Below, piece by piece: positions 38,179 through 57,126 of a stretch of 64,000 nt of DNA (its first letter is position 1; every line of letters begins with the position of its first letter). Origin of the DNA: Streptomyces sp. NBC_01707 (GTDB lineage Bacteria; Actinomycetota; Actinomycetes; Streptomycetales; Streptomycetaceae); assembly GCF_041438805.1 (NCBI RefSeq), contig NZ_CP109190.1, positions 1 through 64,000 on the forward strand, read 5' to 3'. The notes under the pieces were generated by a model. It was not told the origin of the DNA. It saw only the letters and a program-made list of their open reading frames with translations, and did no database searches. The position numbers were made by a program, and so were the translations under genes.

Positions 38179-38670
38179 TCACCGCACGACCGGCAACCGC
38201 AACGCAGGAGGCCCCTGCGTGGCCAACCACGTCACGGGCTGCGAGCAGCTGCGGCCCCGCCTGCGCCAAGGCGTGGAGGACGACGTCAGTGCCCTGGCCG
38301 GGTTCAGCAGCTCCTGCGCAACCGCGGGCGGCGCGGCCAGGGTGACGATGCCCCGGATCCAGTCGGCGGATGTCGTGTAGGCCACGATCGCGGTGGTCTC
38401 CCAGAGCGACAGGGGTTCCACCGCAGTGAATGCGTCTGGGTCGCTTCCAAGGGGAGGGAGCCGCACGCTGACCTCCACGGTCTCCGCACCGGCGTGGGCG
38501 GTGTCCCCGTCGGGGAGCTGAAGCCGGGCGCTTAGGTCGTAGGCGGCATAGTCCGGACTGGTGCTGTCGGTCGAGTCCTGCCGATAACGCCACTCCTGCC
38601 AGATCCGTGCCGACTGCGTGGTGGCTCCAACCTGCTGCAGTTCGACGGTGACCTGGTGGAGTGTGGCCAT
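38179..38670 (-). CDS. Hypothetical protein, 163 aa
   Basis: Starts MATLHQVTVELQQVGATTQS. The first ~120 residues look like a beta-rich small domain (LSARLQLPDGDTAHAGAETV EVSVRLPP). The last 30 residues turn basic and unnatural (PWRRRGRSCSQPV), so a frameshift near 38270 is possible. Follows the interrupted gene by 18 bp on the same strand, probably one operon upstream of the GmrSD gene. Function unknown. Confidence 0.5.
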   Translation of the reverse strand: MATLHQVTVELQQVGATTQSARIWQEWRYRQDSTDSTSPDYAAYDLSARLQLPDGDTAHAGAETVEVSVRLPPLGSDPDAFTAVEPLSLWETTAIVAYTTSADWIRGIVTLAAPPAVAQELLNPARALTSSSTPWRRRGRSCSQPVTWLATQGPPALRLPVVR

Positions 38671-38688
38671 GTTGATGATGCTCTGTTG

Positions 38689-39027
38689 TTATCTACACCG
38701 GCGTTCCACGCAGGCGACGGCACGTTCCAGCGTGGAGCGGGCCCAGTCGTGCAGCCAGGGGTGCGCCTGCAGGCCGTATGCAGTCTGCGACGCGTCACTC
38801 TGCAGGGTCCGCCAGTGATCCCAGTTGAAGTTCGGCCCCAGGAAGTCCGGTACGTAGTCGGGTTCTTCCCGGCTCCCTGCTTCCTCGGCCTCTTCGACGA
38901 GAAGCTCGCACAGTGAAACGAGGCCGACGAGAACATCCGACACAGCGTTGTCTGCGGAAACGGTTTCCACCCGGCAGCATCCGCACATCCGGGATGCGAT
39001 GTCCGCGTCGAAGCGGGCACGACGTGC
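38689..39027 (-). pseudogene. 3' part of a gene split by an IS3 element
   Basis: The minus frame emerging from the IS3 end reads RRARFDADIASRMCGCCRVE ... LCELLVEEAEEAGSREEPDYV PDFLGPNFNWDHWRTLQSD to TAA at 38689. The composition is natural. The 5' part should lie right of 40254, where a minus frame reads LFLHDTAKNQSVSYGL before the IS. The product is unknown. Confidence 0.5.
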
Positions 39028-39071
39028 TGAGGGGCCCTGCGCTTCTCGGACAGCGGTGTTGAAGGTTCTCC

Positions 39072-39936
39072 TTATGCCGCTGCCTGCAACTCCTCGTACT
39101 CGGCGTGGACTGCTGCGGGAGCCTTGTAGCCGAGTCCGGAGTGGAGGCGTTTTCGATTGTAGAACATCTCGATGTAGCGGACGATCGCCCGGCGGGCATG
39201 TGCGCGTGTTGGGAACGTAGTTCGTTCTTGAGGCCGCCGAAGAATGATTCAGCCATCGCATTGTCCCATCAGACACCGGTGCGGCCGACCGACGCTCGCA
39301 GGCCCAACGAGCGGAGCTTGCAACGAAGTTGCAGCCTTCGGCGAGGTCGATGTTCCGGGCCGCTATATCGAGTGCATCCGATATGAGAGAGGTCTTCATA
39401 TGGTGGGCCATCGCCCAGCCGACCACAGCTTTAGTGTGACAGTCGATTACGGTCGCGAGATAAAGGAACCCGGCCCAGGTGTGAACGTAGGTGATATCGC
39501 TGACCAGTTTGCGCCCGGGAGCGTCAGCGGTGAAGTCACGGGCCAGCAGGTCGGGCGTGGCCGGCGCCGCATCATCGGCGATCGTGGTCGCCCGCCAGGG
39601 CCGCTGCTGGTACGGCACCAGATCGAGCTCGCGCATCAGCGCGTGGACCAGTTCCGCTTCGGCCTGCACGCTCACCCGCTGGAGCACGGCGTGGACACGC
39701 CGGTAGCCGTAGGTCCCCTGCGAGTCGGAGAAGACCTGGAGGATGACAGCCCTCAGTTCCGCACGGCGCTTCGCGGTGGCCGACAATGGCCTCGATCTCC
39801 AGTTGTAGAAGCCCGACGTGGATACTCCCGCCCAGGCGCACATCTGCTTCACGGGAAAGTTGTCGCCTCGCCGACGATGAACTCGCACTTCTCCTTCACC
39901 GGTATTCCTGGGCGAAGAAGGCCGCCGCATTTCCAA
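39072..39936 (-). pseudogene. IS3 transposase orfB, inactivated
   Basis: N-terminal HTH_21 part (FPVKQMCAWAGVSTSGFYNW) and the first catalytic strand KLVSDITYVHTWAGFLYLAT are intact. After NIDLAEGCNF a deletion removes the HSDRGSQY segment with the second Asp. A TGA replaces a Cys codon in [16 protein letters not shown], and the tail [20 protein letters not shown] is in a third frame because bases are missing after LKNEL. Stop TAA at 39072. Confidence 0.85.
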
Positions 39937-40186
39937 GAATTATGTCTTCATACGGAGTTCCCGACTCTCGCGATCCAGCTCGCGCAGGCGGGCGCGCTCG
40001 CTGATGTTCAGGGGGAGGCTCCTCCCCGGCGTGTTCTTGCCGGTACCGGCTGACCCAGGTGCCCAGCGTTCCCTCGTTCACTTGTATCTCTCGGGCGACC
40101 TCGGCTATCGGGCGGGACTCCACGACCACCATCTTGACCGCCTCGTCCCGAAATTCAGGACTGAACTTCCTACGCTTCTGTGCCAC
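39896..40186 (-). pseudogene. IS3 orfA with two compensating indels
   Basis: MAQKRRKFSPEFRDEAVKMV is the helix-turn-helix orfA protein. After GEEPP a fifth C in CCTCCCCCTG shifts the frame, so the expected NISERARLRELDRESRELRM lies in the +1 frame. About 75 bases later a missing base restores the frame for LGNAAAFFAQEYR. The 96-residue product therefore has a scrambled central stretch. Confidence 0.8.
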
Positions 40187-40254
40187 GTGCCCTCTCCGCC
40201 GTTCTGGACTTCGATCCTATGGGGACCGCCGTCCGAGAACTTCGGGGCGCCTCA

Positions 40255-40621
40255 GTCCATACGAAACCGACTGGTTCTTGGCGGTGTCGTGCAGGAACAG
40301 TTCTGCAAGCCCGTCGCCCACAGCCGATGGCGGATCTCAGGCTCGGCGATCGGACGGCCAAGGAAGCGGAAAATCCAAATGCTTGTCGGCGTCTCGTGGG
40401 AGGTGCCCGTTCGGTCATGTTTGGTTGCCCGGGCGGCTCGGGTGCGGGGAGTGTGGGAGGGGGGTGGTGGGGGTGTGCTGGCAGGCTGGCATTCGGGTTC
40501 TGGGTGTGTGTGCGGTGGGTTGGGGCCGGGGCGGTGGATGGTCTGAACGCTGTTGTGTCCGGTGTTGGTTGTGGGGCATGTGGGTGTGTCGGGGTGGGGG
40601 TGTGGTGTGGGTGATGTGGTG
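40255..40621. other. Gap between IS3 and the giant gene
   Basis: Holds the probable 5' remnant of the split minus-strand gene (RFLGRPIAEPEIRHRLWATG and LFLHDTAKNQSVSYGL in different frames), then a very G-rich plus strand leading to the giant gene. No RNA gene seen. Confidence 0.35.
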
Positions 40622-43600
40622 GTGCCTGCCGCGGTGGGCTGGGTGTTCACGTTGGTGGGTGGGCAGCGGTGGCCGGATGCGTCGGAGACGCGTCTGGACG
40701 AGGCGGGCAAGAACTGGGCGGGGTTCGGGCATCAGATCCAGGCTCTGGGCGGGGCGTTGGGGTCTGCGGGTTCGGGTGTTCTGGACACGGTGGGCGGCCG
40801 GATCGCGGACGAGTTCCGGTCGCTGGTGGGGCAGTTGGAGCAGTATGTTCCCGAGCTTGCGGGGGTGGCGCGGGATCTGTCGGGGTTGTTGCGGGATTCG
40901 AGTGTGCAGACCCGTTATACGAAGGACATGATTCTGGCGCAGGTGGTGATCGCTGCGGCGCAGATCGCGTGGTGGTGGTTCACGATGCCGGCGGCGATCC
41001 CGAATCTGCTGGCCACGTTCGAGATCTCGATCACGATGCTGCTGCGGGAGCTGGCGGTCTCCGCCGCGGTGGGTGCGGCGGTCGGGGCAGCGCTGGGTGT
41101 GGCGCTGGACGCGATTGTGCAGGGCATCGAGCTGGCCATGGGCACCCGTGACACGTTCTCCGTGGAGAACACCAAAAGCGCGGCACTCGGGGGTGCGGTC
41201 AACGGTGCCGCGGCGGGTGTGGTCTTCGGCGCCGTGCAGGCGAAGTTCGTGAACCTGCCCAAACACCTGGGGACCAAACTGGTCCTCGGCGCCGTCTCCG
41301 GCGTGGTCGGCACGGCGCTGACGTATCCGATTAACGGCGGCGACTCCCTCCAGTTCGGCACCGGCCTCACCTCCGGCGCCATCGGCGCCTTCGAGGGCGG
41401 CACCCACCACAAGGCCTACGCCCACCCCGACGGCGCCCTCACCAACCTCATCCGCAACACCCACAACATCACCGCAGCCACCAGCCACCTCCTGGACAAC
41501 CCCGCACTCCTACCCACAGAACTCACCAACGACACAGGCACCGACACAGGAGCAGGCACCGGTGCCGGGTCGGGTTCGGGGAAGGGCAGTTCCGGTGCAC
41601 ATGCCGGTGCAGGACTGGGCACCGGCAAAACCACCGACACCAACACAGCCGCGTGGACGGGAAGCCCTCAGACCCTCCAGGTCATGACCGCCCTGACCAC
41701 CCACACCCACCAGGCAGTCGGCGCCACTGCCACCAACTCGAACACGAACACCAGCACCGGCACCGGCACCGGCACCGGCACCGGCACCGAGCATGGTCCC
41801 AAGGCAGGCCTGGCCAACTTCACAACCAACCTCTCCAGCACCACGGCTACCACCGCCGGTGCAGGCACGGGTGCTGCTGCGGATACGGGCCGGGCCGCGT
41901 CCCCTTCGCCAGCCCCTACCACTCGGGCAATCACGCAGCCCACGACGACCAGCACCGCTGCCAGTGGCCCCGGAATTGCACCAAGCCCCCACCGCATCAC
42001 CGTCACCGGCCCAGATACAGGCGTGAATACAGAGTCCGGACTCGCCACAGCCGCCAAACGCCCAACGACCCTCGACACCGAACCCACGAAAACAGGCACC
42101 GGTCCATCGGCCACCACCCGTGCCGACAACAGCCGTTCCCCCGACAGGCCGGCCGCCACCGAGGGAAAAGCCGCCCCGGACGCCATCAGCAGCACTGATG
42201 CGGGCGCAAGTACTACTGCTGATACCGGCCGAATTGGTACTGATCGAATCGATGCAGGTCGAATGGCTGCGGTGACGAGTGAGGAGACATCAGCACAGTC
42301 CCAGAACGCCCCGGCTTCGGGCACACGCACCGGCCCGGCAGACGCACCCGCGAGGACCACCGCCACGGACAAGGCAGGCCCTACGAGCCCCCGCACCACG
42401 CACCGCTCCCCAACGGCCAACGCCCTGGCCGACATCAGCGACGGTGACCACAGTGTCCGAACGTGGAATGACCTCACCGCGCACGACACAAAGGCCGCTG
42501 GGGAGGTCCGCGACCTCGTCATCGCCCAACTCCATGAATGGGGTCACTCCCTCACCCGGGGAGAAGAGGTGCGGAAGCAACTGCCCGGAAGAATCGCCGA
42601 CGCGTACACCCGTATGCACGACGCACTCAAAACGGGACCCCTCCACCAAACCGCCCACCACGTCACCGCCGAACTCACCGGAGCCCGACTCCCCGGAGGA
42701 GCACCGACTCCTACCGACAAACTCGCTGCTCTCATGCCCGTCCTCCGTGCCTGGTGCAGCGAAGGGGACGGCAGAACACTCGAAGACATGGACTCGAAGC
42801 TGGAACTTGAAGTCCGCGGGAATCCTGCAAAGGTCGGGAAAATATTGGATGACATCAAAAAAGGGAGGCGCGTGCCAGGCGAATTTGCTGCGCAGATCCT
42901 CGAAATGGGCGGTCGTGTGCATAATGAAACCGCCATCCTTGCAGCCGCCAAAGCGTATCTCGATGAACATCGGGATTTCCACAATATCCCGGAAAATCAC
43001 GTCGAAGAAATCAGGTTTGAATTTGAAACCGCTCGCTACAGGGACGAGAGCGTCCCCCTCGGGCACTATCTGAAGAAGTTCAGCAATGGAGAGCTGCATA
43101 TAGGTCGTAAAGTTCATGAATTTTTGCAGGCAAAGGGATGGAGGACTGAAGTGCCCGTATCTCCATATTGGGAGGAGCTTTCCGATTACGGGACAAAGCA
43201 TGGCAGAGGATCCCTCGACAAGATCCCGCTGAAAGGCCCCTATCGTCATCTCCGCAGGTATCTGGATCACGTCAGGACCGGTGAGAGCTTTATGGATGCA
43301 ACGACTGCTTCTCGTCTGGAAGAGGAGTCCGGATGGTCTCGAGACAAGCCGCTCCGTGCTGGTCGTCGCCAACCGGCTGAAGGTCCATCTTCTTCCAGTG
43401 GCCGACGTCGGGTTCCAGCGGCTAACAGGGAAGATCACTCCCCGGACGCAGGCCAGCAGACCATGGACTTCGACCAGCCCAGCCGGCATCTGTTGCCGGG
43501 TTCCGATATTCATCGCACCTCGCACGCCGATACCGGACAACCCGCTCCGCCTCGACCCGACACCGGACCGACCACCCGGCAGTCCGCCCAACCTCAAGCC

Positions 43601-45907
43601 ACAAGTTCCAGCAGTACACCGTCACGAACAGCAAGGCCTGCCAGCCCCAGTCCCAGCCACACCAGCAGCAACTCCGATGCCGACTCGCTCTTCGACTCCA
43701 GGCCCGGCACTCCACATCAACGCTTCACCCTCAATCTCCCACGCCAGGAAGCCGAACCCCTCCCGGTGACACCAGAGCCAGACATCGGTACGCACCATGG
43801 CCCCAACCCTGCCGACACGCGCCGCGCCCCCACTCCCATCGACGCCGACCAGTACCTCCCCCCCTTCCCCAGCCTCAACGCCGTCACCGCCCTCGGACAC
43901 GAACTCGCGCTCCGCCGCTGGGACGAGCCCGCCGCAACCGGATTCCTGCGCCGCGCACCTCTGGACCCCAACACCCCACCCGACCCCAACATCCTCCCCG
44001 CCCTCACCCGCCAGCAGATCACCGACTTGTACACCTGGATTTCAGGCCACGACGACGCCATCACATTCGGGCAGATATTCGACCACGTCAACCAGACAAT
44101 GCAAAAACCCCAGATGAGACAAAGACTTACCATCCAATCTATTACCCTCACGCCCCTCCAGATCCACGCCATTCACCAGCAATACCGGGCCTGGAAAAGG
44201 GAACGGAGAAACCCGCCGACCGCAACCCAAGGACTATGGGTAAGAAAACTCAACAACACTTACGAAGCTGTCAAAGCATTCGCGAACAAACACCCAGACG
44301 AGAAACTTCTTGCATCGACGTGGCAGAATATCACCGATCCGGACGGCAAAACGATATACGTGCCAGTCGGAAGGTACATCACAAATCTCTCGCATAATGG
44401 AAAACGCCTTCCGGATGACGTGTGGGAGGCGGTAAAAAAATCCCAACACCCCAACTGGTATCGCTTCGAAAACAACGACGGACCCAGGAAAATTAACATA
44501 AACCTCGTGAGGAAATTCGATCAGGAAGAGTATATTTACGCGGCTACTCTCGCGGAGTTTTTCAAAAGAAACCCGGACGGCATAGTCAAATTCGGCACGA
44601 TTGTGCACGGCATTCTTGACCGTGATGGAGAGACGCGGAGCGTGGAAATCGGCCAGCGGTACTTCCGGAGAAGGAGGGAGTTGCCGCCGCAGGAGTACAA
44701 CCTGCTTGCGAAACATCAGCCGGCTCTCGCGGATAGCCATTGGAAGGGAGAGGAACAGGATGCCTTGTACACATCCCGCGGTGACCGCATTGGTGCTGGT
44801 GGGCATGCTGCCAGGGTCGTGCGCGAGCCTGATTCGGGGTCGGAGTCCGGGCCGGAATCATCCGGTCGGGACTCAGGCATGGACGTGGACATGGAGTCCG
44901 AGTCGGGTGGTGGGGTCTTCACCCAGCATGTGGTTCTGCAGCTGTCAGGGGAGCCGGGGCCGTCGTTGTGGCAGGTGTCGTACCTGGCTGACGGCACAGT
45001 CAGACTGCGGAACACGTCCACCGGTAGGGAGCTGGGTGCCGCGCCGGACGACGCGCGTATCCTCGGCGCCCTCGACGACGAATCGGCCGACCCCCCACCC
45101 ACCACGCAGTACCGCTGGATCCCGGAGAACGGGGACTGCTTCTACGAAACCGTCCTCGCCGCCCAGAACCTGCCCGGCGGCCCGGAGCATGTGCAGGCAC
45201 TGCGCCACCGGTTCGCAGGCTGGATGGACACCAACGAACAGGCCGTGCGGCAATGGATCGACCAATGGCAGACGCCCACCTACCGCGTCAGTTACGACGA
45301 TGTCCTACGCACCGTCACCACTCTCGGAGACTGGGCAGGAAACGGCGGCGACTTCGTCCCCAACATCGCCGCCAGCGTCCTCAACTTCGACATCACCATC
45401 AGGATCGTCCAACAGCACAACAGCCGCACCCGCGCCTACAACGTCACCGCCCGGCCCATCCACCTCAGCACACTCCAACCCCCTACCACCCACACCCTCC
45501 ACACCCGCCTCCACCGCAACCACTACACCCCCCTCGCCCTCGAACCACGCCCCCAACCACAACTCGCCCACCAACCCCCCACCCCCGGCGAAGAAGACAT
45601 CACCTGGCAGCACGCGACCGCACAATTCGACCTTCAAGAATTCATAGCAAGCCTCCACCACGAAAACACTCCGCCCACACCATTCGACCTCGGCGAATTC
45701 CTGACCGGCCTCCAGAACCCGCACACAGAACAACCCCCAAACGAAACCCAATCCCCAGGCCTCACCGGGTTGGACGCAGAAACTCTCGCCTTCTGGGCCG
45801 GCCTCACCACCCAGGAAACCCAGCCGGCAGCCACACCCTTACCCACAACGCAACCCAACCCCCAAGAAGACTTCTTCGACTTCGACCTCGACACCGAAAT
45901 GGAATGA
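40622..45907 (+). CDS. Giant WXG100-like protein with C-terminal OTU protease domain
   Basis: About 1,761 residues from GTG 40622 (GTG 40619 also possible; weak ribosome site). N terminus: WXG100/CpnT-like helical domain (VPAAVGWVFTLVGGQRWPDA ... AGKNWAGF) followed by Gly/Ala membrane-like helices (~100-235). Residues ~270-600 are a disordered Thr/Gly/Pro linker. Residues ~720-890 and ~1150-1370 hold repeats resembling helicase-associated modules (VPLGHYLKKFSNGELHIGRK; VPVGRYITNLSHNGKRLPDD). The C-terminal domain has ENGDCFYETV with catalytic-like Cys 1506 and NHYTPL with His 1634, the OTU cysteine-protease signature. Architecture of a type VII-exported polymorphic toxin; targets unknown. The repeat blocks are AT-richer than the flanks. 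Confidence 0.8.
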   Translation: MPAAVGWVFTLVGGQRWPDASETRLDEAGKNWAGFGHQIQALGGALGSAGSGVLDTVGGRIADEFRSLVGQLEQYVPELAGVARDLSGLLRDSSVQTRYTKDMILAQVVIAAAQIAWWWFTMPAAIPNLLATFEISITMLLRELAVSAAVGAAVGAALGVALDAIVQGIELAMGTRDTFSVENTKSAALGGAVNGAAAGVVFGAVQAKFVNLPKHLGTKLVLGAVSGVVGTALTYPINGGDSLQFGTGLTSGAIGAFEGGTHHKAYAHPDGALTNLIRNTHNITAATSHLLDNPALLPTELTNDTGTDTGAGTGAGSGSGKGSSGAHAGAGLGTGKTTDTNTAAWTGSPQTLQVMTALTTHTHQAVGATATNSNTNTSTGTGTGTGTGTEHGPKAGLANFTTNLSSTTATTAGAGTGAAADTGRAASPSPAPTTRAITQPTTTSTAASGPGIAPSPHRITVTGPDTGVNTESGLATAAKRPTTLDTEPTKTGTGPSATTRADNSRSPDRPAATEGKAAPDAISSTDAGASTTADTGRIGTDRIDAGRMAAVTSEETSAQSQNAPASGTRTGPADAPARTTATDKAGPTSPRTTHRSPTANALADISDGDHSVRTWNDLTAHDTKAAGEVRDLVIAQLHEWGHSLTRGEEVRKQLPGRIADAYTRMHDALKTGPLHQTAHHVTAELTGARLPGGAPTPTDKLAALMPVLRAWCSEGDGRTLEDMDSKLELEVRGNPAKVGKILDDIKKGRRVPGEFAAQILEMGGRVHNETAILAAAKAYLDEHRDFHNIPENHVEEIRFEFETARYRDESVPLGHYLKKFSNGELHIGRKVHEFLQAKGWRTEVPVSPYWEELSDYGTKHGRGSLDKIPLKGPYRHLRRYLDHVRTGESFMDATTASRLEEESGWSRDKPLRAGRRQPAEGPSSSSGRRRVPAANREDHSPDAGQQTMDFDQPSRHLLPGSDIHRTSHADTGQPAPPRPDTGPTTRQSAQPQATSSSSTPSRTARPASPSPSHTSSNSDADSLFDSRPGTPHQRFTLNLPRQEAEPLPVTPEPDIGTHHGPNPADTRRAPTPIDADQYLPPFPSLNAVTALGHELALRRWDEPAATGFLRRAPLDPNTPPDPNILPALTRQQITDLYTWISGHDDAITFGQIFDHVNQTMQKPQMRQRLTIQSITLTPLQIHAIHQQYRAWKRERRNPPTATQGLWVRKLNNTYEAVKAFANKHPDEKLLASTWQNITDPDGKTIYVPVGRYITNLSHNGKRLPDDVWEAVKKSQHPNWYRFENNDGPRKININLVRKFDQEEYIYAATLAEFFKRNPDGIVKFGTIVHGILDRDGETRSVEIGQRYFRRRRELPPQEYNLLAKHQPALADSHWKGEEQDALYTSRGDRIGAGGHAARVVREPDSGSESGPESSGRDSGMDVDMESESGGGVFTQHVVLQLSGEPGPSLWQVSYLADGTVRLRNTSTGRELGAAPDDARILGALDDESADPPPTTQYRWIPENGDCFYETVLAAQNLPGGPEHVQALRHRFAGWMDTNEQAVRQWIDQWQTPTYRVSYDDVLRTVTTLGDWAGNGGDFVPNIAASVLNFDITIRIVQQHNSRTRAYNVTARPIHLSTLQPPTTHTLHTRLHRNHYTPLALEPRPQPQLAHQPPTPGEEDITWQHATAQFDLQEFIASLHHENTPPTPFDLGEFLTGLQNPHTEQPPNETQSPGLTGLDAETLAFWAGLTTQETQPAATPLPTTQPNPQEDFFDFDLDTEME
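41755..41787. repeat. ACCGGC hexamer run
   Basis: About five to six tandem ACCGGC units coding alternating Thr-Gly inside the linker of the giant protein. Six-base units keep the frame, so length changes would not switch the gene off. Confidence 0.7.
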
Positions 45908-45954
45908 CCAAGCCTCAACCGCTCCGCATTTACGATCAACCCCGGAACGGTTCG

Positions 45955-46485
45955 GGATTGTAAAACTAACGGCGGATCTGATGATCAAGAGAGAGACGCC
46001 AGATGACCGACACCGCCGTTGAGTCCATGGAGTCCGTCGAGCAGGCCACCTCGCCGTCGGCGAGCGGGACAAGCGACGAGCAGTTGATCGCGATGCTTGT
46101 GGATCGGGCCTGCCCGGAGGGCCTGCAACTGACCGGCGAGGGCGGGTTGTTGCAGCAGCTGACGAAGCGGGTGCTGGAGTCCGCCCTGGAGGGCGAGATC
46201 ACCGACCACGTCGGCTACGACAACGCTGCAGGGAAGAACAGTGGCAATAGCCGCAACGGCACCCGGGCCAAGACCAAGACCGTGCTGACCGATGTCGGCC
46301 CGGTCGAGGTCCGGGTGCCGCGCGACACCGCCGGCACATTCGAGCCGCAGATCGTCAAGAAGCGGCAGCGGCGACTGACCGGGGTGGACGAGATGGTGCT
46401 CTCGCTGTCGGCCAAGGGCCTCACACACGGTGAGATCGCCGCTCACCTCGCCGAGGTCTACGGGGTGGAAACGTCCAAGCAGACC
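45955..46485 (+). mobile_element. IS256-family 5' fragment
   Basis: The IS end is visible as GGATTGTAAAACTAACGGCG near 45953-45972. The transposase starts at ATG 46003 (MTDTAVESMESVEQ) and reads well through LTKRVLESALEGEITDHVGY, KTVLTDVGPVEVRVPRD and LSAKGLTHGEIAAHLAEVYG to SKQTT at ~46488, where homologous sequence ends abruptly. Only the N-terminal ~160 residues remain, without the DDE core. Confidence 0.85.
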
Positions 46486-46640
46486 ACTAGGCGCCCGAGC
46501 TCGGGAAGCGGACTGTGCCCTTCGGACCAGTCATTGACCCAACCGCAACCCGCACACGCGTACCGGCCATCGAGACCCGCGATCTGCGTCCCGCACCGAG
46601 CGCACCCTATATAGGTGATCTCCGGGTGCGACAGAGACAT
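46485..46640 (-). CDS. Small zinc-ribbon protein, 3'-truncated
   Basis: From ATG 46640 (MSLSHPEITYIGCARCGTQI) with two CxxC pairs (CARC, CAGC) around AGLDGRYACAGCGWVNDW, a zinc ribbon. The family usually continues with an acidic tail after GHSPLPE; here the frame runs into the IS256 fragment, so the end is replaced. Role unknown; DNA or RNA contact is likely for such ribbons. Confidence 0.5.
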
Positions 46641-47092
46641 CTCAGACCGTGCCGATTCCGGGCCAATCACCATGATCGGAAGCTACCCGCGTAAGCAGCG
46701 ACGCCAGGGGCTAAAAGCGACACCACCACACCCTCTCTACAGGCGCCAGGAAACCCTTACTTGCTCTCAAGGGCCCAGCGCAGCGCCGTCCGTTTCTCGC
46801 GTCATCGCTGGCGCATGGTCAGGCAGGCGGTTTTCCGAACGGAAAACTCCCCGGTCGCGGAGCTGCTGGAGGCTCTCCAGGCCGCCCGGCCGGTACAGCG
46901 GGCCGGCGGCGATGTCGGCCTCTGCCGCGTCCGCGGAGCGGGAAAACCAGGTCCTGAAGGTGATGAAATATGTCACAGGCGGAACGTTTAACGTTCAACT
47001 TGCTTGGGAGTAGCGTCGCTCTTGCCCCACCACCCCGGGGCGCCGCCAGGGCCCCACCCACAGGGCTCCGGCACCGAACAAGGAGAAAGATC
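46641..47092. other. Regulatory-looking gap with two palindromes
   Basis: No confident gene. gttttccgaacggaaaac (46830-46847) and gaacgtttaacgttc (46982-46996) are perfect palindromes. The second lies ~97 bp before the start of the secreted protein gene in an AT-richer stretch and looks like an operator. Short frames on both strands here are not convincing. Confidence 0.45.
46982..46996. promoter_or_regulatory. Operator-like palindrome gaacgtt-t-aacgttc
   Basis: Perfect 7-1-7 inverted repeat upstream of the secreted protein gene, in the size range bound by MarR/TetR-type dimers. No dedicated regulator gene is adjacent. Confidence 0.45.
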
Positions 47093-47521
47093 ATGAATCA
47101 CACCTTCGGGCGTCGCGCCGCCACCGCGGCCGTCGCTTTCGCAGCCATAGCCGGCACCCTGCTGGCAGCGGGCGGAGCCGCCTCGGCAGCTCCGAATCCT
47201 GCGGCCGGCCATGCCGCTGTCGCCTCCCACACCCCGGGCGCATCGACGTACGGCGACCACCGTGGCGACCGGAACGACCACCGCGGCAGCTGGGGCGACC
47301 GGGACGGAGACGGCCACCGCTGGGGCGACCGGGACGACCGCCGCGGCGACTGGCGCTGGGATGGTCACCGCCGCTGGGAGCGGCAGGGCGGGTACTGGTA
47401 CAGCAACGACCACGGCCACCGTTACCGCTTCGACAACCACCGCTTCTACCAGTGGGAGCGCGGCATATGGGTCGTCGTGATCGGCAACGGGCACGACTTC
47501 GACTACGGCATCTTCCGCTGA
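47093..47521 (+). CDS. Secreted Asp/Arg/His/Gly-rich small protein
   Basis: 142 residues from ATG 47093, 8 bases after AAGGAG. Clear Sec signal peptide: RRAATAAVAFAAIAGTLLAA with cleavage near ASA-AP (~residue 34). The mature part has short repeats of the type WGDRDGDGHRWGDRDDRRGD, then an aromatic end (YWYSNDHGHRYRFDNHRFYQ, WERGIWVVVI). It may bind metal or the cell wall; unknown. Many Streptomyces secrete similar low-complexity proteins. Confidence 0.8.
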   Translation: MNHTFGRRAATAAVAFAAIAGTLLAAGGAASAAPNPAAGHAAVASHTPGASTYGDHRGDRNDHRGSWGDRDGDGHRWGDRDDRRGDWRWDGHRRWERQGGYWYSNDHGHRYRFDNHRFYQWERGIWVVVIGNGHDFDYGIFR

Positions 47522-47606
47522 ACGCACGGACCATGGCGCGCGCCGAGCCCGGGCACCCGCTCTACCGCCCGGGCCCGGCACCCCCGGTCCCAACACACTC
47601 CGAACC

Positions 47607-48023
47607 ATGAGCAGCTGCGTAGATCACATGCTCGACATGGAGCTCGCGTCCCCTCTGGGTGAGCGGATCCTCGTGCCGACCCACCTGCTCTACAGGTCAC
47701 AGGACCCGCTCGCCGTTCAGCTCCTCTTCCAGGACGGCCTCCATGGCCCAGTCCCGTGGGTCTTCGCGCGCGACCTTCTCGCCGCAGGGACTCAGACCCT
47801 CAGCGGGGACGGGGACGTACAGGTCTGGCCCGACGGGTCCGGCCGCGAGGCGCTGCTGCACCTCCTACTGTCCTCCCCGCACGGGTCCGCCCACCTCACG
47901 GCCTCGCTCCCGGCGATCGAGCGGTGGCTGCACCGCACGTACCAGCTCGTGCCCGCCGCCAGGGAAACCCAGGCACTGGACCTCGAAACCCACCTCACCC
48001 AGTTCCTGGACGGAGCGGCCTGA
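47607..48023 (+). CDS. SsgA-like (SALP) morphology protein
   Basis: 138 residues, normal for the family. Characteristic features: VPTHLLYRSQDPLAVQLLF, VPWVFARDLLAAG, GDGDVQVWPDG and LPAIERWLHRTYQLVPAARE. SsgA-like proteins are specific to morphologically complex actinomycetes and control septum placement and peptidoglycan events in sporulation. ATG 47628 is an alternative start. Its plasmid/arm location suggests an accessory copy. Confidence 0.9.
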   Translation: MSSCVDHMLDMELASPLGERILVPTHLLYRSQDPLAVQLLFQDGLHGPVPWVFARDLLAAGTQTLSGDGDVQVWPDGSGREALLHLLLSSPHGSAHLTASLPAIERWLHRTYQLVPAARETQALDLETHLTQFLDGAA

Positions 48024-48278
48024 AACCGTTCCGGGATTCCTGGAGCCTCGCTTATCGGCACACACACGAGCCCCCTTGCCCGCCCGACACCGACGGTGAC
48101 GGGCCGGCAACAGCAATGAAGACGGTGCACCGGGTACCACGGGTGACCGTGGCCGACGTCACCAGGTCAAAACGGACATACGATGCCATCATCGATATCA
48201 TGCAAGATTCAACCATTCACCTTGAAGGAGTCGCCGTATCATCCGCCGCAAAAACAACGGATATCGCTGACCAGGGGC
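48024..48278. other. Gap with a short AT-richer frame
   Basis: A plus frame from ATG 48116 reads MKTVHRVPRVTVADVTRSKR TYDAIIDIMQD and runs into the antisense of the integrase gene. It may be a small real gene or a remnant. No terminator hairpin of note. Confidence 0.3.
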
Positions 48279-49345
48279 TCAGCTCCGTCGGCGGGCGGCC
48301 GGGTCGGACGCCGCGACGTGGGCCGCAACCGCGTCGACGCCGGGACGGGCGTACCGCTCCAGGGAGCGGACGGAGGCGTGCCGGGAGCGGGCCAACAGCA
48401 TCGGCGTGGATGTCCCGCTTTCCGCATCGTGTGTCAACGCGCTGCGCCTGAGCCGGTGGAGGGTCCAGCCGTCCAGGTCCTCGATGTCCTCGGGCGAGGC
48501 CAGCGGGTTGGCCAGCAGTCGGGTGTTCTCCTCGAAGATCTCCTCGGCCCGGCGGTAGGAGAGCCGGACCCGTCCGGTCTCCGGGCACACGTCGAGCGTC
48601 GGTGTCCCGGCCGGGGCCTTGCGGTCGGTGAGGAACAAGGGACCGCGGGTACGGCGGGCGATGAGGCGGGCAGCAGTTGGGCGGTGCCGGACTGCCAGTG
48701 AATTCACTCTGTGGCCCCGCCCTTGGCGGTGATCTTCCCGTGCTTGTCCTGCGCGTACAGGTCTTCCACGTTCAGGCACAGCACCTCGTCGGCGCGGGCC
48801 GCGGACTCGTAGAGCATCTTCCAGAACGTCTTCTTGCGCAGGGCGACGTCCAGGCGCCACAGGGCGGCGATCTGGTTCTCGGCCAGGGCCTTGGTGCGGT
48901 CCGGCGGCGCCGGCCGCCGCTCGATCCCGATCGTCGGGTCACCGCTGATCCAGCCCTGGCGCTGCCACCAGCCGATCGCCTTGCGCGCGATGGACAGCTC
49001 CCGGTTGACGGTGTCGGCGTCCATCTCGTCCGCCCGAGCCGCCGCCAGCTCGGCCAGCACCTCGGGCAGCGCGGGATCGTCGATCGCGGCGACGGGGAAG
49101 ACGGGCGGCTTCGCGCCGCGGCGGGCGGGCCCGGTCGGCGCCGGTTCGCCGGCGAGCATCCACCCCCATGTCGTCAGCGAGATCCGGTAGATCCGCGCGG
49201 AGGACTTCGCGGTGCCCGCGCCGGTGAGGTACCGCTCGACCGCCGCGGTGTACGACGAGGGCGGGGCAGACAGCGGCACCACCCGGGTGCGCGGCACACG
49301 CAGCGCGCCCCCGCTCCCGAGTTCGGTCACCGGTTCGCTTATCAC
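48279..49345 (-). pseudogene. Tyrosine recombinase/integrase, inactivated
   Basis: N-terminal SAM-like core-binding domain (SYTAAVERYLTGAGTAKSSA ... TTWGWML), catalytic domain with first Arg in YESAARADEVLCLN, then GKITAKGGATE followed by TGA at 48704 where the family has Trp. In the same line IHWQSGTAQLLP continues, then one base is missing and the rest (RLIARRTRGPLFLTDRK ... HRLRRSALTHDAE ... ASVRSLERYARPG, with His/Arg and Tyr) is in another frame to 48279. Two lesions, so inactive. Confidence 0.85.
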
Positions 49346-49366
49346 GCCCGTCCCGCCCTTCCGGTC

Positions 49367-49477
49367 CTGCCGCAGTAAATGCGTACACCTCGCCTGCGGC
49401 CGCCGGAGGGCCCGCCGCAGGTCGCGATGATCACGCTAGAGGGTCTGCCGCAGTAAATCCGGCATTTACCGCGGCAG
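49367..49477. repeat. Recombinase-site-like repeats beside the integrase
   Basis: CTGCCGCAGTAAAT occurs at 49367-49380 and 49445-49458, and inverted (one mismatch) at 49464-49477. The last two form a 14-5-14 inverted repeat. They lie immediately upstream of the dead integrase start. Such symmetric sites are what tyrosine recombinases bind as core sites; an operator is the alternative. Confidence 0.55.
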
Positions 49478-49536
49478 GCGGCAGCAACCGGCGTTCAGCC
49501 GACCGCGTCCGTGGCAAGCCTGGGCAGCGGCCCAAC

Positions 49537-50357
49537 CAAGGTCATCCCATGGCGGCTTCTGGGCTCACCTTGGAAGCAGGCCCCCCGCGGAGCACATCAC
49601 CGACTCTTTGGCAGGAGTCGATTCTGTGCTGTGCGCGGCGGGCGCGTTCCTCTGGGTCTCGCACGAAGAGAGCCTGTCGTCCAGGGTGGTACGTACTGAC
49701 CACCTCCAGACTCCGTTCACGGACAACTCCGGGGTGCGTCTTGAGCAGGCGGTCCCACGCGTTCTGGGCTTCGCCGCCTTGGAGAAGCACGACCTCGACT
49801 TTCGGCATCAGCGCCAGCAGCTGCTTGAGGACCTCGACGCCGGCCTGGAGCTCGGCCGCCTTCGGCGAGCGGTTGATGTACCAGGGGTAGGCGTTCCAGG
49901 GAGTGACGTCTCGCGGCGCGATCCCTGCCCCCTCGAAGAGCTGGACCTGAAGCTCCGCTGTCGGATCGTCGTTCTCCACGCACAGGAATCCCGAGCCGGC
50001 ACCCTCCTGCGTCTTGGGGCCCGGGTCCCGCAGGATCGACAGGGCGCGCGCATCCACTCCCCCATGCCAGGGGGCGACGTGCGGCATCCATCCACGCCCG
50101 TCATGGTCGCGCAAGGCGTCGACCATCTCATTGATCGAACGTACGTGTGGGGCGTAGCGCCGCTGCTCCTGCTCTATCCGGAACGCCTCGTCACGCATTC
50201 GTCTCGCCATGCTTCCTCCGATACCGGCATCCACCATCGCGGGGACCCTACCGGGCATGTCTGACCCTGCAGACTGCTCGATCGACCCTGCCCGCAGGCA
50301 CCAGAGGGGGCTCACACTTTCAAGATCATCTCGTGGCGGCTTTTGGGCTCATCTTGG
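49537..50357. repeat. 37-bp direct repeats flanking the UDG-like gene
   Basis: 49537-49573 and 50321-50357 match at 32 of 37 positions (shared core TGGCGGCTT-Y-TGGGCTCA). The left copy codes the last residues of the UDG-like protein, and the right copy would code a similar tail. Either a remnant of a duplicated paralogue or transposon-end sequence of the neighbouring Tn3-type element. Confidence 0.55.
49542..50210 (-). CDS. Uracil-DNA-glycosylase-fold protein
   Basis: 222 residues from ATG 50210, with GGAGGAAGC directly upstream. Fold markers: ALSILRDPGPKTQEGAGSGF, then ENDDPTAELQ, DVTPWNAYPWYINR (~118-131), the strand VEVVLLQGGEAQNAWDRL (~163-180) and TYHPGRQALF (~197-206) in place of the HPS loop. 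Members of this superfamily remove or recognise damaged or uracil bases. The exact catalytic residues are not the classic set, so activity is uncertain. Flanked by an imperfect 37-bp direct repeat. Confidence 0.7.
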   Translation of the reverse strand: MARRMRDEAFRIEQEQRRYAPHVRSINEMVDALRDHDGRGWMPHVAPWHGGVDARALSILRDPGPKTQEGAGSGFLCVENDDPTAELQVQLFEGAGIAPRDVTPWNAYPWYINRSPKAAELQAGVEVLKQLLALMPKVEVVLLQGGEAQNAWDRLLKTHPGVVRERSLEVVSTYHPGRQALFVRDPEERARRAQHRIDSCQRVGDVLRGGPASKVSPEAAMG

Positions 50358-50383
50358 CTGGACCCCCAACATTCTTGACTTCT

Positions 50384-50857
50384 TTATAGACCGCGTGCCG
50401 GGCGGAGCAGCCCTGTGCGGAACAGGTCGGAGGCGGCGGCTTCAATTTCGGCGCGGGCCGCGGACGGGAAGACCGACCGCCGATGGGTGTTCGCGACCAC
50501 CGCCTGGTCCAGGCTGCCGTGCGCCGAGACCGAGTGGAAGATCTCCAAGTCCTCCCGACCGAACAGCAGGAACCCTTCCTCGGTCCGCGTGTCCTCGATG
50601 GCCAGCCAGTGGGCCTGCCACCCCCACTGCACGTACGAGGGGATGGCCAGGCGGTCCGGCAGCTCTGCGAGGTGGTCGACCGCGTCGGCCGGGTGGTCTC
50701 TGTGCCAGTAGATCAGGGCCCAGGGCCCCTGGTGCAGGCGCTTGTCCAAGGCCTGGGCCCAGTGGCAGTCTGGGCAGTGGACGACGGGCTGCCCGTCGAA
50801 CCTCCGGTCGTAGTCCGCAGCCGGGCGGTGCAGCTCGGCAGTTCGGTACGCGTTCAT
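50384..50857 (-). CDS. Hypothetical protein coupled to the Tn3-type transposase
   Basis: 157 residues from ATG 50857, overlapping the transposase stop (ATGA). Contains VVHCPDCHWAQALDKRLHQ, a CxxC pair, then WALIYWHRDHPADAVDHLAE and an acidic/aromatic middle (GFLLFGREDLEIFHSVSAH). Family not recognised. Its coupling suggests it travels with the transposon. Confidence 0.55.
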   Translation of the reverse strand: MNAYRTAELHRPAADYDRRFDGQPVVHCPDCHWAQALDKRLHQGPWALIYWHRDHPADAVDHLAELPDRLAIPSYVQWGWQAHWLAIEDTRTEEGFLLFGREDLEIFHSVSAHGSLDQAVVANTHRRSVFPSAARAEIEAAASDLFRTGLLRPARGL

Positions 50858-52116
50858 CGGGCCTCTGCGACGGTCGGGGCGGGGTGCACCGGGGTGCGGG
50901 GACGGGGCAACTCTGCGGTCAGCGCGAGGTCGAGCCGCCTGTCCATGTCGAGCCGGAAAGTACCGTACGGGTTGATGTTCGACCAGAACAGCGCGGTCAG
51001 GCCGCGCCGGTCCTCGACGCTCAGCCTGTTCGCCCACTTCGGCTCGGCCAGGACCTGCTGGAGCAGCAGGGTGTTGACGTGCACGAGGCTGGACTGGAGA
51101 GGTGCAGGGCGAGCATCGATGTCTCGGCGTGCTCCTTGTCCGGGCCGGTCAGGGCGCCGTCCTTGCCGTAGTGCAGCACGGTGTTCGCGCTGTTCCAGTT
51201 CTCCACGACCTGGAGCCCGCCGTGGATCTCGCGGCGCAGGCCGGGGCTGGCCAGGTAGTCGCAGGCGAAGACTGTACGAACTGCGCGGCCGAGTTCTTCG
51301 AGGGCGGCGTAGGTGGGGTGCTTGGGTCCACCGCGGGTGAAGCGCGGCAGCACCTGCTCCGCCTCCGCCGTCCCCAGGCGGAGCGCGGTCGCGTACTTGA
51401 CCATCTGGTCGTACTGCTGCTCGATCAGCTCCCAGCGGATCGGCCGGGTCAGGGCGGTACAGGCGGATGCTGCCGATGTTCTTCAGTCTCGGCAGCGGCC
51501 GGAAGTTCAGCAGCTCGGTGAACGCGAACCCGACTACCGAGGCGCCGTGGGTGTCGACGTAGTTGGCCTCGATCTCGGCGTCCGTGCAGTGCCGCAGCAG
51601 CCCCTCGATCATCGCCGCGACCTCGGACGACGAACAGGACTTCAGCTGGGAGTAGATGCAGACGTTCTTCTTCTCGACGTGCCAGTAGATCATCACGCCG
51701 TTGCCGCCGTTGCCGCCGTAGCGGGCGTGGTACTCGGTCATAAAGTTGCTGGACCAGGACCCGAACTTCTTCGAGTCCGACGCGCACGCCGTGCCCTGAC
51801 CCCACCAGGCGGCATCCCGGGCCGCGAAGGTGCCGTTCACGAGCCGGGTGACGGCGGCGCGGAGGTTGTCGACGGTGATGAAGTGCCGGCGCACGTGCCG
51901 CAGGGCGGCTTCGGTCTCGTCGTGCTCGCCGGTCGCCACGATCGCCCGGATGCCCATGTTGGTGCCCAGGGCGAACAGCGCGAGCAGCAGGCGCCGCTGG
52001 AGGGTCGCGCGGCCGATGCGCTCGTAGGCGGCGACCGAGGTGAACTCGTCGGTGAAGCCGGTGAGGAAGTCGGCGTTCTTCAAGGTGCGTAGCGCGGGCG
52101 AGCTCAGGACTCTCAC
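50854..52116 (-). pseudogene. Tn3-family transposase, 5'-truncated and frameshifted
   Basis: Similarity starts at ~52116 (RTLKNADFLTGFTDEFTSVA) and covers the DDE part: GQGTACASDSKKFGSWSSNF, GVMIYWHVEKKNVCIYSQLK, ANYVDTHGASVVGFAFTELL. The frame changes near 51450 (IRWELI.. into [20 protein letters not shown]) and returns near 51095 ([20 protein letters not shown] to NINPYGTFRLDMDRRLDL). The N-terminal ~500 residues are missing. Inactive. Confidence 0.85.
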
Positions 52117-52284
52117 CGTCGGTGATCCACTCCTCGGCCTGGGTGGGGGTGAACCGAACGGCCCGTGACCGCGACCGGGCTTCACAGCTCCCGTCGTCCC
52201 GCCCACTATGACCGACTCATCGAGTGTGGCAAGGTGCTGCGTCGGTGGAGCAACATGCGAGCGTCGGCCGCCGGTGGGCCAGCA

Positions 52285-52317
52285 GTGCAGGCCCACCGGT
52301 GTGCAGTGGGCCTGCAC
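52285..52317. terminator. Strong hairpin left of the IS630 element
   Basis: Perfect 12-bp stem 52285-52296/52306-52317 with a 9-base loop, 40 bp outside the IS630 end. Candidate terminator for transcription leaving the IS or for the plus strand. Confidence 0.6.
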
Positions 52318-52366
52318 ACCTCTCAGCCTGGATGGGAGCAAAACTGTTGACCGATTACTGAGGTTT

Positions 52367-52960
52367 TCAGGGTGAGGTCGGTGGGTTGATAGCCAGGCCC
52401 GTGGCGGTGAGGCAGCCGTCGATCAGGTGGGGCCGGATCTGGATTCTGCGTAACTCGCGGCGAAGTGTGCGGTCGAGGTCGTCGGGTGTGTCGAAGGCGG
52501 TGTTGGCCGTGGCTCTGCGCACGAGTGACCAGACGGCCTCGACGGGGTTCAGGTCGGGTGCATAGGGCGGGAGGCGGATGGTGGTGAGCCAGTCGTTTTC
52601 GGCCTCGTACCGTTTCAGCCCAGCAGCCAGGTGGGTGTTCAGGTTGTCCCAGACCACCACGATCGGCCCGCCGAGCTGGATGTGAGCGCGGACCAGCAGA
52701 TCGCGGTAGTCCTGCCAGGAGAAGCTCTTGCGTGCGCCCTTGAGCAGGAGGTGGTTGCGGGGCCGATGGACGAGACGGCTTTTCTCGCCAGGTTTGTAGC
52801 AGCACAAGGCTGCCACCGAGGTCCGGCGACGGGATCTGCCTCTCACCCGGATGACGGGGGTGTGTCCGCGCCGGCCCCAGGTGCGGGCGCGGGGCGGCGT
52901 CATGGAGAACCCGGCCTCGTCCTCGAAGACGATCCAGCCACCATGGGCCGCCGCGAGGCT
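52367..52960 (-). CDS. IS630 transposase, second frame (DDE part)
   Basis: Continues from the first frame as AAAHGGWIVFEDEAGFSMTP (first Asp in FEDEAG), then VVVWDNLNTHLAAGL (second Asp) and LPPYAPDLNPVEAVWSLVRR (final Glu), the full DDE triad of IS630/Tc1 enzymes, to a stop at 52367. It has no good start of its own in this region, so it is likely expressed by frameshifting; otherwise it is a simple mutation. Confidence 0.8.
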   Translation of the reverse strand, partial: SLAAAHGGWIVFEDEAGFSMTPPRARTWGRRGHTPVIRVRGRSRRRTSVAALCCYKPGEKSRLVHRPRNHLLLKGARKSFSWQDYRDLLVRAHIQLGGPIVVVWDNLNTHLAAGLKRYEAENDWLTTIRLPPYAPDLNPVEAVWSLVRRATANTAFDTPDDLDRTLRRELRRIQIRPHLIDGCLTATGLAINPPTSP

Positions 52961-53439
52961 TTTACCCGCGGCCACACCTCCTTCTTCCACAGCTCGACGG
53001 CGCGCTCGTCGCGTTCGAGGGCTCTGCGGGCAGGTGCCTGCCAAGACCAGCCGTGCCGTTTCAGCAGCCGCCATACGGTCGCCACCGACAGACTCACTCG
53101 CAGACGCCGGCGGATCACCGTCTGGACCCGGGCCAGGGTCCAACGTTCATCTTCGAAACCGTGCGCCGACGGGCCCTTGCCGAGTTCGTCCTCGAGCACG
53201 GCGAACTGGGAATCGGTAACGGTCGGAGAGTTGGCCGGGCCTGCGGAACGCAAGGCCTCCATGCCACTCTCGCGCCAGGCACGGCGCCAGCGTTCCACCG
53301 ACCGCACACTCACCCGCAGATCCTTCGCGATCACCGCGGTCTTCTCACCCGCCGCGAACCGCTCGCCAGCCTTCAGCCGGATCCCCTCACGAAACGCCCG
53401 ACGCTCAGCAGTCAGGCCCCCACCCTCCGGATAACGCAT
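52900..53439 (-). CDS. IS630 transposase, first frame (HTH part)
   Basis: 179 residues from ATG 53439. Helix-turn-helix/winged-helix region: GEKTAVIAKDLRVSVRSVER (~30-50) and LSVATVWRLLKRHGWSW (~115-131). The frame is natural up to KEVWPRVKA, then the natural continuation is in the -1 frame from ~52950. The sequence GTAAAAGCC there could allow -1 slippage, a mechanism used by some IS, to make the full protein. Confidence 0.8.
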   Translation of the reverse strand: MRYPEGGGLTAERRAFREGIRLKAGERFAAGEKTAVIAKDLRVSVRSVERWRRAWRESGMEALRSAGPANSPTVTDSQFAVLEDELGKGPSAHGFEDERWTLARVQTVIRRRLRVSLSVATVWRLLKRHGWSWQAPARRALERDERAVELWKKEVWPRVKASRRPMVAGSSSRTRPGSP

Positions 53440-53462
53440 ACCACCGGCATACCGCAGGGATC

Positions 53463-55574: not shown

Positions 55575-56343
55575 GAGGGCGTTTGAAGTCGTGCGCAAGA
55601 TGTTCGCAGGGGATTCCCGTGCGGTTGACGTAGAGGTTTGCGTTGTCGGCTCTCCTGCCCCCGTCGGCTGCCGGCCGTCTGCTCAGTCATCTGCCCGAGG
55701 ACGCGGTGGAGCTGTTGCTGGCGAGAATCATCGCGCAGTCGTAGGCATGCAGTTGCTCTGGCTGACGTTGGGCTCTCGCGGCGTGATCGAGCGCTTTGGC
55801 GCGGGCTCCGTATCAGGATCGGCGGCATCGCCCCGGCCGTCCTCGCCGAGCCCTACCGGTCGGCGGCGACCCTGGGCGAGGGAATGGGTGGACACGCAGG
55901 TGCACGGGACGGGCGATCGTGGGCTCAGGCCGACGCGCAGGACGCGGCCTTCCCCCGTGAGGCGATCCCGCCTGCCGGGCCGGTCGCGGAGGCGCGTCGC
56001 TGCTCCTGCACGAGGCGTTCCTGGCCGCCGCGTTCGCGCTGCCGCTCGGTGACCGCTACCGCCCGGGCCTGCCCTCGCCCTACCTGCGGTGCAAGGCCCA
56101 GGTGGTGCAGCTGCTGCCGTCCGCCGCGCTGGAGGTGCTGCAGCGGCGCAAGCAGTACTTCAAGACCGCGTTCGCGATCGCGTCCCCCTCCGGGTGCCGC
56201 GCACCGCGGTGCGTGGGCGCGGGACTGCTGGACGGTGACGCGCTGGCGGTCGAGACCGATCTGGCGGTGCTGCTGGTCGTTGCGGCGCTGGAGCGGTGGC
56301 TGGCCGGAGCCGAGATGAAGGCGGTCATCACAAAAGTCTGATC
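55575..56343. other. Decayed coding region
   Basis: Fragments only. A frame at 55643-55745 reads LSALLPPSAAGRLLSHLPED to TAG. A frame from ~56000 reads LPSPYLRCKAQVVQLLPSAA LEVLQRRKQYFKTAFAIA and ends AEMKAVITKV near 56341. Natural-looking pieces in changing frames indicate at least one dead gene of unknown function. Confidence 0.4.
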
Positions 56344-56396
56344 CGTCAGCGTCAGCCACTTACGGATGGCGTGCTCACACCAAGTACCATCCCCGG

Positions 56397-56567
56397 ATGG
56401 CACTCTTCAGGCGCAACAAAGCCAGCAGCAACGCAACAACCGCACTGCTTGTCGTCACGGACAGCGGCATCACCCGCGTAAGCACCGGTTCGTATGGGAC
56501 AGACCTCGTCCAAGAGGTCGCCAAACTGCTCCGCTCCGAGAACATCCGGAGTCCCGCGCCTGCCTGA
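56397..56567 (+). pseudogene. Small gene cut by an IS1182 fragment
   Basis: ATG 56397 opens MALFRRNKASSNATTALLVV TDSGITRVSTGSYGTDLVQE, a natural start, ending at TGA 56565-56567 just after the junction with IS1182 sequence (~56553). 56 residues remain. Not identified. Confidence 0.5.
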
Positions 56568-57118
56568 GCGATCCCGACTCCCGGCTGGTTCCTGGCAAAC
56601 GCGGCGGCTACCTGCAGGGATACAACATCCAGATTGTGTGCGCTCGCCGCCAGTTCTTGCTGGCCATCGAAGCGCACGACAATCCCTCGGACAGAACGGC
56701 CCTCGTTCCGATGGTGAACAAGACGCAGCACAATCACCAGGCCGCAGGACTCCCCGGAGACATCCAACTCTGGCTCGCCGACAGCGGGTACGCTTCCGCC
56801 GCCGCCTTCGAGGCCCTCGCTGACCTCCCACTGCTGCTCTCGGTCACCAGCGATGCCGACCAGGCAGGCTTCCCCGCGAAACGCCAGCAGGCCCCTGCCG
56901 GCCAGCAGGACATGGCGGCCCGCCTCGCCACCCCGACAGGACGGGCCCAGTACCGTCAGCGCAGTGCCCTGGTCGAGCCGGGGTTCGCCCAGCTCTTCCA
57001 ACGATTCGGGCGCCACCTCAGCTAGCGCGGCCGCCGGGCCGTGGACACCGAGATCAAGCTCCTCGGCACGGTCCACAACCTCAACAAACTGATCAAGCAC
57101 GCACCCAGGAAGCGCTCT
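56556..57118 (+). pseudogene. IS1182 transposase 3' fragment
   Basis: Reads SRLVPGKRGGYLQGYNIQIV ... LWLADSGYASAAAFEALAD ... VEPGFAQLFQRFGRHLS, the C-terminal DDE half of IS1182-type transposases. A TAG at 57023 interrupts before RGRRAVDTEIKLLGTVHNLN, which then ends at 57118. N-terminal half missing. Confidence 0.85.
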
Positions 57119-57126
57119 TGACCTTC

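Follow-up and report, generated by a model that had tools for sequence, protein, structure and literature searches.

A Giant Streptomyces Protein Joining a WXG100-Type Front Module to a Predicted OTU-Like Cysteine Protease Domain

1. Introduction

Proteins joining a WXG-type domain to an OTU domain were predicted in actinobacteria in 2012 (Zhang et al., PMC3482391), and the same work predicted that the OTU domains of free-living bacteria act as toxins or as processing enzymes (PMC3482391). According to these authors, the toxin versions stand C-terminally, while the processing versions are mostly N-terminal or placed before a C-terminal toxin. Here, we describe a protein of this kind encoded in a 64,000-nucleotide stretch of Streptomyces sp. 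NBC_01707 (contig NZ_CP109190.1, positions 1 to 64,000, hereafter the window). Its gene (40622..45907, + strand) starts with GTG, contains no in-frame stop, and encodes 1,761 amino acids (aa). We give slightly better than even chances to the reading in which this giant protein belongs, intact, to a set of WXG100_2-fronted Streptomyces effectors and its OTU-like domain is the payload.

Like the WXG/type VII secretion polymorphic toxins of Zhang et al. (PMC3482391), the protein has an N-terminal WXG-type domain, an OTU domain in the toxin or processing position, and an actinobacterial host. Unlike these systems, it carries a helicase-associated (HA) domain between the front module and the OTU domain (the term "helicase associated" does not occur in the 300,000 of 357,715 characters searched in PMC3482391); its module recurs, at 98–99% DNA identity, in two more giants of one plasmid, one of them the amidoligase giant; and its gene has no adjacent immunity gene. 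The WXG-OTU kind is already known, and what is new is the HA-OTU architecture and the trio of giants sharing one module. In the open-licence PMC literature, we found in print neither HA-OTU effectors nor a front module shared at the DNA level by OTU and amidoligase giants, and we came across no actinobacterial OTU domain whose substrate had been tested. The locus offers a compact test case: on one linear plasmid, three giants share an identical ~300-residue front module, which is joined to a predicted OTU protease, an amidoligase, and a third body, respectively. A comparison of the three could tell whether this module serves as a signal for type VII export, and an activity dependent on C1506 would decide among a deubiquitinase, a self-processing protease, and a bacterial toxin.

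2. One Front Module on Three Giant Proteins

The open reading frame (ORF), called in an earlier note made from the sequence alone, is real: it stays open over 1,761 codons, and the protein is found with 100% identity over its full length in NBC_01230 and NBC_00055. RefSeq places the start 15 bp (5 codons) upstream, which gives 1,766 aa (WP_327425343.1, a hypothetical protein in the annotation of Streptomyces sp. NBC_01230). The same note had proposed a WXG100-like N terminus. Indeed, a WXG100_2 domain (PF25547) covers 40637..41014 (+ strand, aa 6–131) at 48.1 bits, for a cut-off of 27, and this locus is the sole one found in the window genome (54.7 bits in the genome search). A hydrophobic Ala/Gly-rich stretch (40928..41236, + strand, aa ~103–205) overlaps the end of this domain and continues beyond it. 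It comprises 20 windows of 19 residues (starts at aa 103–187) whose Kyte–Doolittle mean exceeds 1.5, with a maximum of 2.14, and no other such window exists in the entire protein.

The DNA encoding this module recurs in two other giant genes of related plasmids. In NBC_01527, the shared block (40596..41557, + strand) sits within the gene for a 3,791-aa protein, the 3.8-kilo-amino-acid (3.8-kaa) giant, with an identity of 99.1–99.2%; the match starts 26 bp 5′ of the GTG and decays in the linker repeats past ~41528. The copy in the amidoligase gene corresponds to window positions 40392–41557 (98.3%) and takes in 230 bp upstream of the GTG. On the NBC_01230 plasmid, the two further giants bearing the module are WP_327425545 (3,803 aa) and WP_327425540 (2,899 aa). 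The first 295–300 aa are 100% identical across the three giants of this plasmid, and, past these ~300 aa, BLASTP among them returns short pieces only, largely linker. Like the window protein, WP_327425540 carries the module in its first 300 aa at 100%, matches our HA profile (see Section 5), and is encoded on the same linear plasmid. Unlike it, WP_327425540 has a C-terminal Amidoligase_2 domain in place of the OTU domain (aa 2539–2737, 27.1 bits, cut-off 22); in a Pfam scan alone, WXG100_2 and Amidoligase_2 are its only families above cut-off. WP_327425545 gives no significant OTU match, and a dead OTU domain that we had seen by eye in the 3.8-kaa giant was dropped, its NBC_01527 copy scoring −0.7 bits to the profile.

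A constant N-terminal part is thus found on differing C-terminal parts, as in polymorphic effectors. Because one front module has been copied onto three bodies, which is the clearest sign, we place the giant protein in a polymorphic effector set. In the window's own genome, the module was found in a single copy. In the plasmid records, the extra place counted per record is probably a 53-bp inverted scrap, seen in both of the stretches compared.

The other giants call for some observations of their own. In NBC_01527, the amidoligase giant (L099 17550–27546) is interrupted by an insertion sequence (IS) element of the IS3 type after the front module, while the NBC_01230 copy is unsplit. The 3.8-kaa giant, encoded by an interior gene of the NBC_00055 and NBC_01230 plasmids, is absent from the window genome save for the shared module. 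At least 1.6 kb downstream of it, on the same strand, lie two small ORFs of 85 and 121 aa (L100 32116–33081), which are possible immunity genes.

3. An OTU-Like Domain near the C Terminus

The OTU-fold cysteine protease domain is predicted at 45110..45544 (+ strand, aa 1497–1641). The two motifs singled out in the earlier note are there, i.e., NGDCFY at aa 1503–1508, with the Cys1506 codon at 45137–45139, and NHYTPL from aa 1633, with the His1634 codon at 45521–45523 (both on the + strand). The protein had also been said to end in this domain, which is loosely put, about 120 residues following it. In the predicted structure, the fold is OTU-like and the presumed catalytic Cys and His are in place: the Cys (residue 17 of the model) is in helix 16–25, where the core helix starts, and the His (residue 145) in a late strand (143–153), in a part whose predicted local distance difference test (pLDDT) score is near 50–60. 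Moreover, the counterparts of Cys1506 and His1634 are invariant in our alignments A2 and A3. The homology to OTU is indirect, a leave-one-out profile giving 21.6 bits against at most 4.3 for shuffles. Compared with PDB sequences, the OTU profile reaches E-values of 0.34 and worse, and the OTU entry EschOTU comes second (0.47), on the Cys motif. The domain is 9–21% identical to those of OTUD3, yeast Otu2, and the Wolbachia wMel OTU deubiquitinase (PDB 4bou, 7pl7, and 6w9o), and their ubiquitin specificity is not transferable to it.

4. Relatives of the OTU Domain

Beyond the identical plasmid copies, no close relative of the OTU domain was found among ~5.8 billion proteins (E limits of 0.001 and 1), in GTDB contigs, or in a further 294 genomes from the genus, and profile A2 found none in viral contigs. 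Phage and plasmid matches of the domain had E-values of 2 or worse, as had those of the G283 domain; on inspection, gp16 of phage Tyrumbra and a pETH1 protein showed no OTU match. The NGDCFY motif, searched as a DNA pattern in GTDB contigs, gave eight stretches, seven of which are not OTU-like by eye. In the eighth, from Roseateles sp. YR242 (L014 4937–4954), the motif stands in an OTU-like context within an open frame of 788 codons.

Profile A2 gave matches (E up to 0.05) in 72 of 394 genomes of the class and 40 of 392 of the genus, and those read as sequence were 18 translated loci plus the frames G283:C48, C79, and C90. Among the 18 loci, five are OTU-like by eye (L059, L061, L029, L065, and L045) and two look like aminotransferases (L031 and L036). 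The remaining 11 comprise other proteins, short frames, and frames that are probably on the wrong strand. OTU-profile and WXG100_2 matches share one open frame of 4,732–7,040 codons in G045, G674, G723:C48, G222:C2, and G753:C37. WXG100_2 is above cut-off in two of these five (G723:C48 and G753:C37), and the OTU score is just 16 bits in G222 and G753; the sequence was read for G045 and G674, while G723:C48, G222, and G753 were paired with their WXG100_2 frames by coordinates alone.

Two relatives deserve a closer comparison. P0002 is an OTU domain-containing protein of Streptomyces violaceorubidus (frame in G283:C67), whose contig starts inside the gene, and P0003 a hypothetical protein of 3,278 aa from Streptomyces sp. 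NPDC056160. Like the window protein, both have an OTU domain of ~160 aa (23–29% identical by alignment); P0003 matches WXG100_2 weakly (21.1 bits, short of the cut-off of 27), and P0002 matches the HA profile (32.5 bits). Unlike it, both have DGDC instead of NGDC, an internal OTU domain, and other repeats, and the HA profile finds no match in P0003. P0003 also contains a second, partial OTU C-terminal piece (aa 807–840, 16.2 bits), perhaps a relic. WXG100_2 likewise stays below cut-off in G045 (21.8 bits) and G674 (23.0 bits), and none was found in G232, G223:C115, G283:C48, G283:C67 (cut at its 5′ end), and G562.

5. An HA Domain between Module and OTU Domain

The HA domain (42935..43144, + strand, aa 772–841) was found with a profile built from 11 HA-like repeats of two relatives (G283:C48 and G232). 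It scores 20.3 bits, against 4.9 for the best domain in 1,000 local shuffles; PF03457 itself gives no direct match to the window protein. A second copy at aa 716–757 is not claimed, its 7.2 bits facing a best shuffle of 7.5. In G283:C48, the OTU-like domain comes after eight repeats, seven of which Pfam calls HA (PF03457, 157.8 bits, cut-off 28.4), and Pfam names no OTU domain there. In G232, three HA-like repeats stand behind the OTU-like domain (19.7 bits, below cut-off). The profile also matches the amidoligase giant at aa 1063–1117 (21.2 bits, best shuffle 5.6), and it finds no match in WP_327425545 (2.0 bits). Nucleic-acid binding is the role generally ascribed to HA domains, and it is the probable function of this one as well.

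6. A Proposed Delivered Payload and Its Alternatives

In the mechanism that we favor, the ~300-residue module, made of WXG100_2 and the hydrophobic stretch, would be the delivery part, copied by the plasmid lineage onto different bodies, and the protein would be exported through type VII secretion via this module. A search for EccB, the only type VII component sought, found one locus in the window genome (C1:3112185, 261 bits). The body would carry the HA domain and then, near the C terminus, the OTU cysteine protease as payload, acting in a recipient cell and not on its own chain. Its likeliest target would be the ubiquitin, or one of the ubiquitin-like proteins, of a eukaryote living in the same soil, because such cleavage would spare the producer and no immunity gene lies directly downstream. 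Bacteria of this kind are not known to have ubiquitin. Between a toxin and a self-processing domain, both envisaged in the earlier note, the balance leans toward the payload without settling the matter. The payload role is likelier because the OTU domain is not followed by any recognised domain, because differing rear ends are found behind the same N-terminal module, and because Zhang et al. place the toxin versions C-terminally (PMC3482391).

Several observations weigh against this mechanism. The eukaryotic target rests on argument, not on evidence. The Foldseek E-values of the model to OTU structures are only 0.05–0.5; its pLDDT is 66.4, the five models ranging from 47 to 66, and the blocks around the His have means of 49–57. 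The best-scoring leave-one-out stretch (aa 1537–1603) lies past the Cys motif, and PF02338 matches neither the OTU domain alone (E up to 10) nor the whole protein. None of the eight collected relatives has WXG100_2 above cut-off in the same frame, the window protein being for this reason the clearest WXG100_2-OTU combination among the sequences examined. Finally, the residue at Cys-3 is Asn (Asn1503), where the nine OTU-like domains collected, with a pattern permitting Asp or Asn only, have Asp in seven cases and Asn in two. The OTU triad by which the earlier note proposed to judge the domain is therefore upheld in part: the OTU-like fold and the placed Cys and His stand, and a full Cys-His-acid triad is only a possibility.

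These features bear on a further alternative, in which the gene is decaying or catalytically dead plasmid cargo, with the fold kept and the activity lost. The Asn at Cys-3, a divergent OTU sequence without a Pfam match, and the IS remnants flanking the gene on both sides all fit this idea, and so does its composition. Indeed, GC at codon positions 1/2/3 is 0.64/0.53/0.72 (RefSeq coding sequence), the third value (GC3) comparing with 0.77–0.89 in nine nearby genes, and position 3 is the most GC-rich in six of eight windows of 220 codons, the exceptions starting at aa 661 and aa 881. Such a lower GC3 fits acquired or relaxed DNA. On the contrary, 1,761 codons have stayed open, identically in three replicons (closely related ones, however), and Cys1506, His1634, and the G-x-W...G-D core are conserved. 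Moreover, G674 shares the Asn at Cys-3, and OTU-like deubiquitinases with a reduced Cys-His dyad exist (PMC10318531). Because such dyads occur, protease activity is possible for the domain, and we consider a dead or decaying gene quite improbable.

Also at odds with the payload, the OTU-like domain is clearly internal in six of the eight relatives, from 668 to 4,301 residues before the end (minimum distances for G045, G674, and G283:C48), an arrangement that suits processing at least as well; in the other two, G223 and G562, 179 and 208 residues follow the Cys. As a self-processing protease, the OTU domain would act on the giant chain itself once exported or inside a cell, cutting it so as to free the HA region, the region at aa ~1081–1400, or the acidic tail; this is one of the two roles proposed for actinobacterial OTU domains by Zhang et al. 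(PMC3482391). Here, however, 255 residues follow the Cys, about 120 of which form a tail without recognised domain, and the two other giants bearing the module show no OTU domain (no significant match in WP_327425545; by Pfam only in the amidoligase giant). We hold self-processing to be unlikely, though it keeps some weight.

The payload could also be directed at bacteria, the OTU domain cutting a protein of rival actinomycetes. The polymorphic-toxin architecture and the reuse of the module agree with such an interbacterial toxin, and Zhang et al. proposed that the OTU domains found in free-living bacteria could be toxins acting in rival cells (PMC3482391). Against it stands the lack of an immunity gene directly downstream, already remarked in the earlier note: in a search at that site only, no + strand ORF of at least 45 aa starts between the stop codon and a fragment of an IS256/mutator transposase (46003..46614, + strand). 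This fragment, described in the same note as IS256 debris, matches Transposase_mut at 96.9 bits over profile positions 18–136 of 379. Because it is the next + strand ORF, we do not file the giant gene as a toxin–immunity pair, and an interbacterial toxin appears improbable to us.

7. Linker, Middle Region, and Tail

The module is followed by a low-complexity Thr/Gly/Ser/Pro linker with short repeats (41519..42421, + strand, aa ~300–600). The repeats announced in the earlier note are these Thr/Gly-rich ones and a two-copy repeat of 43 nt in the tail; the HA domain had not been named. A motif S(L/I)F(D/S)(D/E/S) occurs once in the linker of each of four OTU giants, i.e., P0001 (aa 1022), P0003 (aa 2554), G232 (aa 383), and G223 (aa 185), in the form DSLFD, or GSLFSD in G232. 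It is present in four of 11 sequences (one gene, without the motif, being counted twice), for a shuffle expectation of 0.005–0.04 per sequence and 0.005–0.015 for the four carriers, with a pattern chosen post hoc.

For the region at aa ~1081–1400 (43862..44821, + strand), no family was found at E < 0.05 in Pfam, NCBIfam, PHROGs, and PADLOC, and no significant match to the conserved regions of the relatives. A domain at aa 1081–1200 that seemed by eye to be shared with G232 and P0003 was dropped (−1.9 bits, shuffles up to 8.7). Just ahead of the OTU domain, phmmer matched the sequence to designed beta-trefoils (E 9e-4 at best), a match taken as compositional.

The protein ends in an acidic tail (45551..45904, + strand, aa 1644–1761) with the pair FDLQEFIASL/FDLGEFLTGL. 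Its 118 residues contain no Lys or Arg, the next longest such stretch having 57. By a score of our own, the tail is the acidic-hydrophobic extreme of the protein (−23), and the stretches of six other giants score about the same or more strongly (−22 to −31); their extreme is near the C-terminal end in P0002, divided between a C-terminal and an N-terminal stretch in P0003, and elsewhere in the other four. This pattern is a hint only. It enters a more speculative proposal, in which the OTU and amidoligase giants would be an opposed effector pair editing protein tags on eukaryotic chromatin: one export module would deliver both, their HA domains would bring both to nucleic acid, the OTU protease would remove ubiquitin-like tags while the amidoligase would make amide bonds on proteins, and the acidic Phe/Leu-rich tail would be an activation or cofactor-binding segment. 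We regard this proposal as highly improbable.

8. Genomic Setting

Upstream of the giant gene lies the remnant of an IS3-type transposase (38689..39936, − strand), with rve (43.8 bits) and HTH_21 (37.4 bits) both above cut-off. In the first 1,500 bases, no inverted repeats within 60 bases were found. The NBC_01527 plasmid is collinear with the window up to 38664 (99.8%), collinearity is broken over 38665–52354, and window positions 52355–64000 are inverted there, at 616–628 kb. Given this break and inversion, the part of the linear-plasmid arm in which the giant gene lies has been rearranged.

With its 64 kb, the window opens a 9.58-Mb contig, and its DNA is that of the left arm of the linear plasmids of 681–683 kb in NBC_00055 and NBC_01230 (99.8–100%); a chromosome end here seems to bear the arm of a plasmid. 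Farther from the giant gene, window positions 9309–12990 match plasmid genes annotated as DUF3732 and ABC-three component system, which may belong to a defence system.
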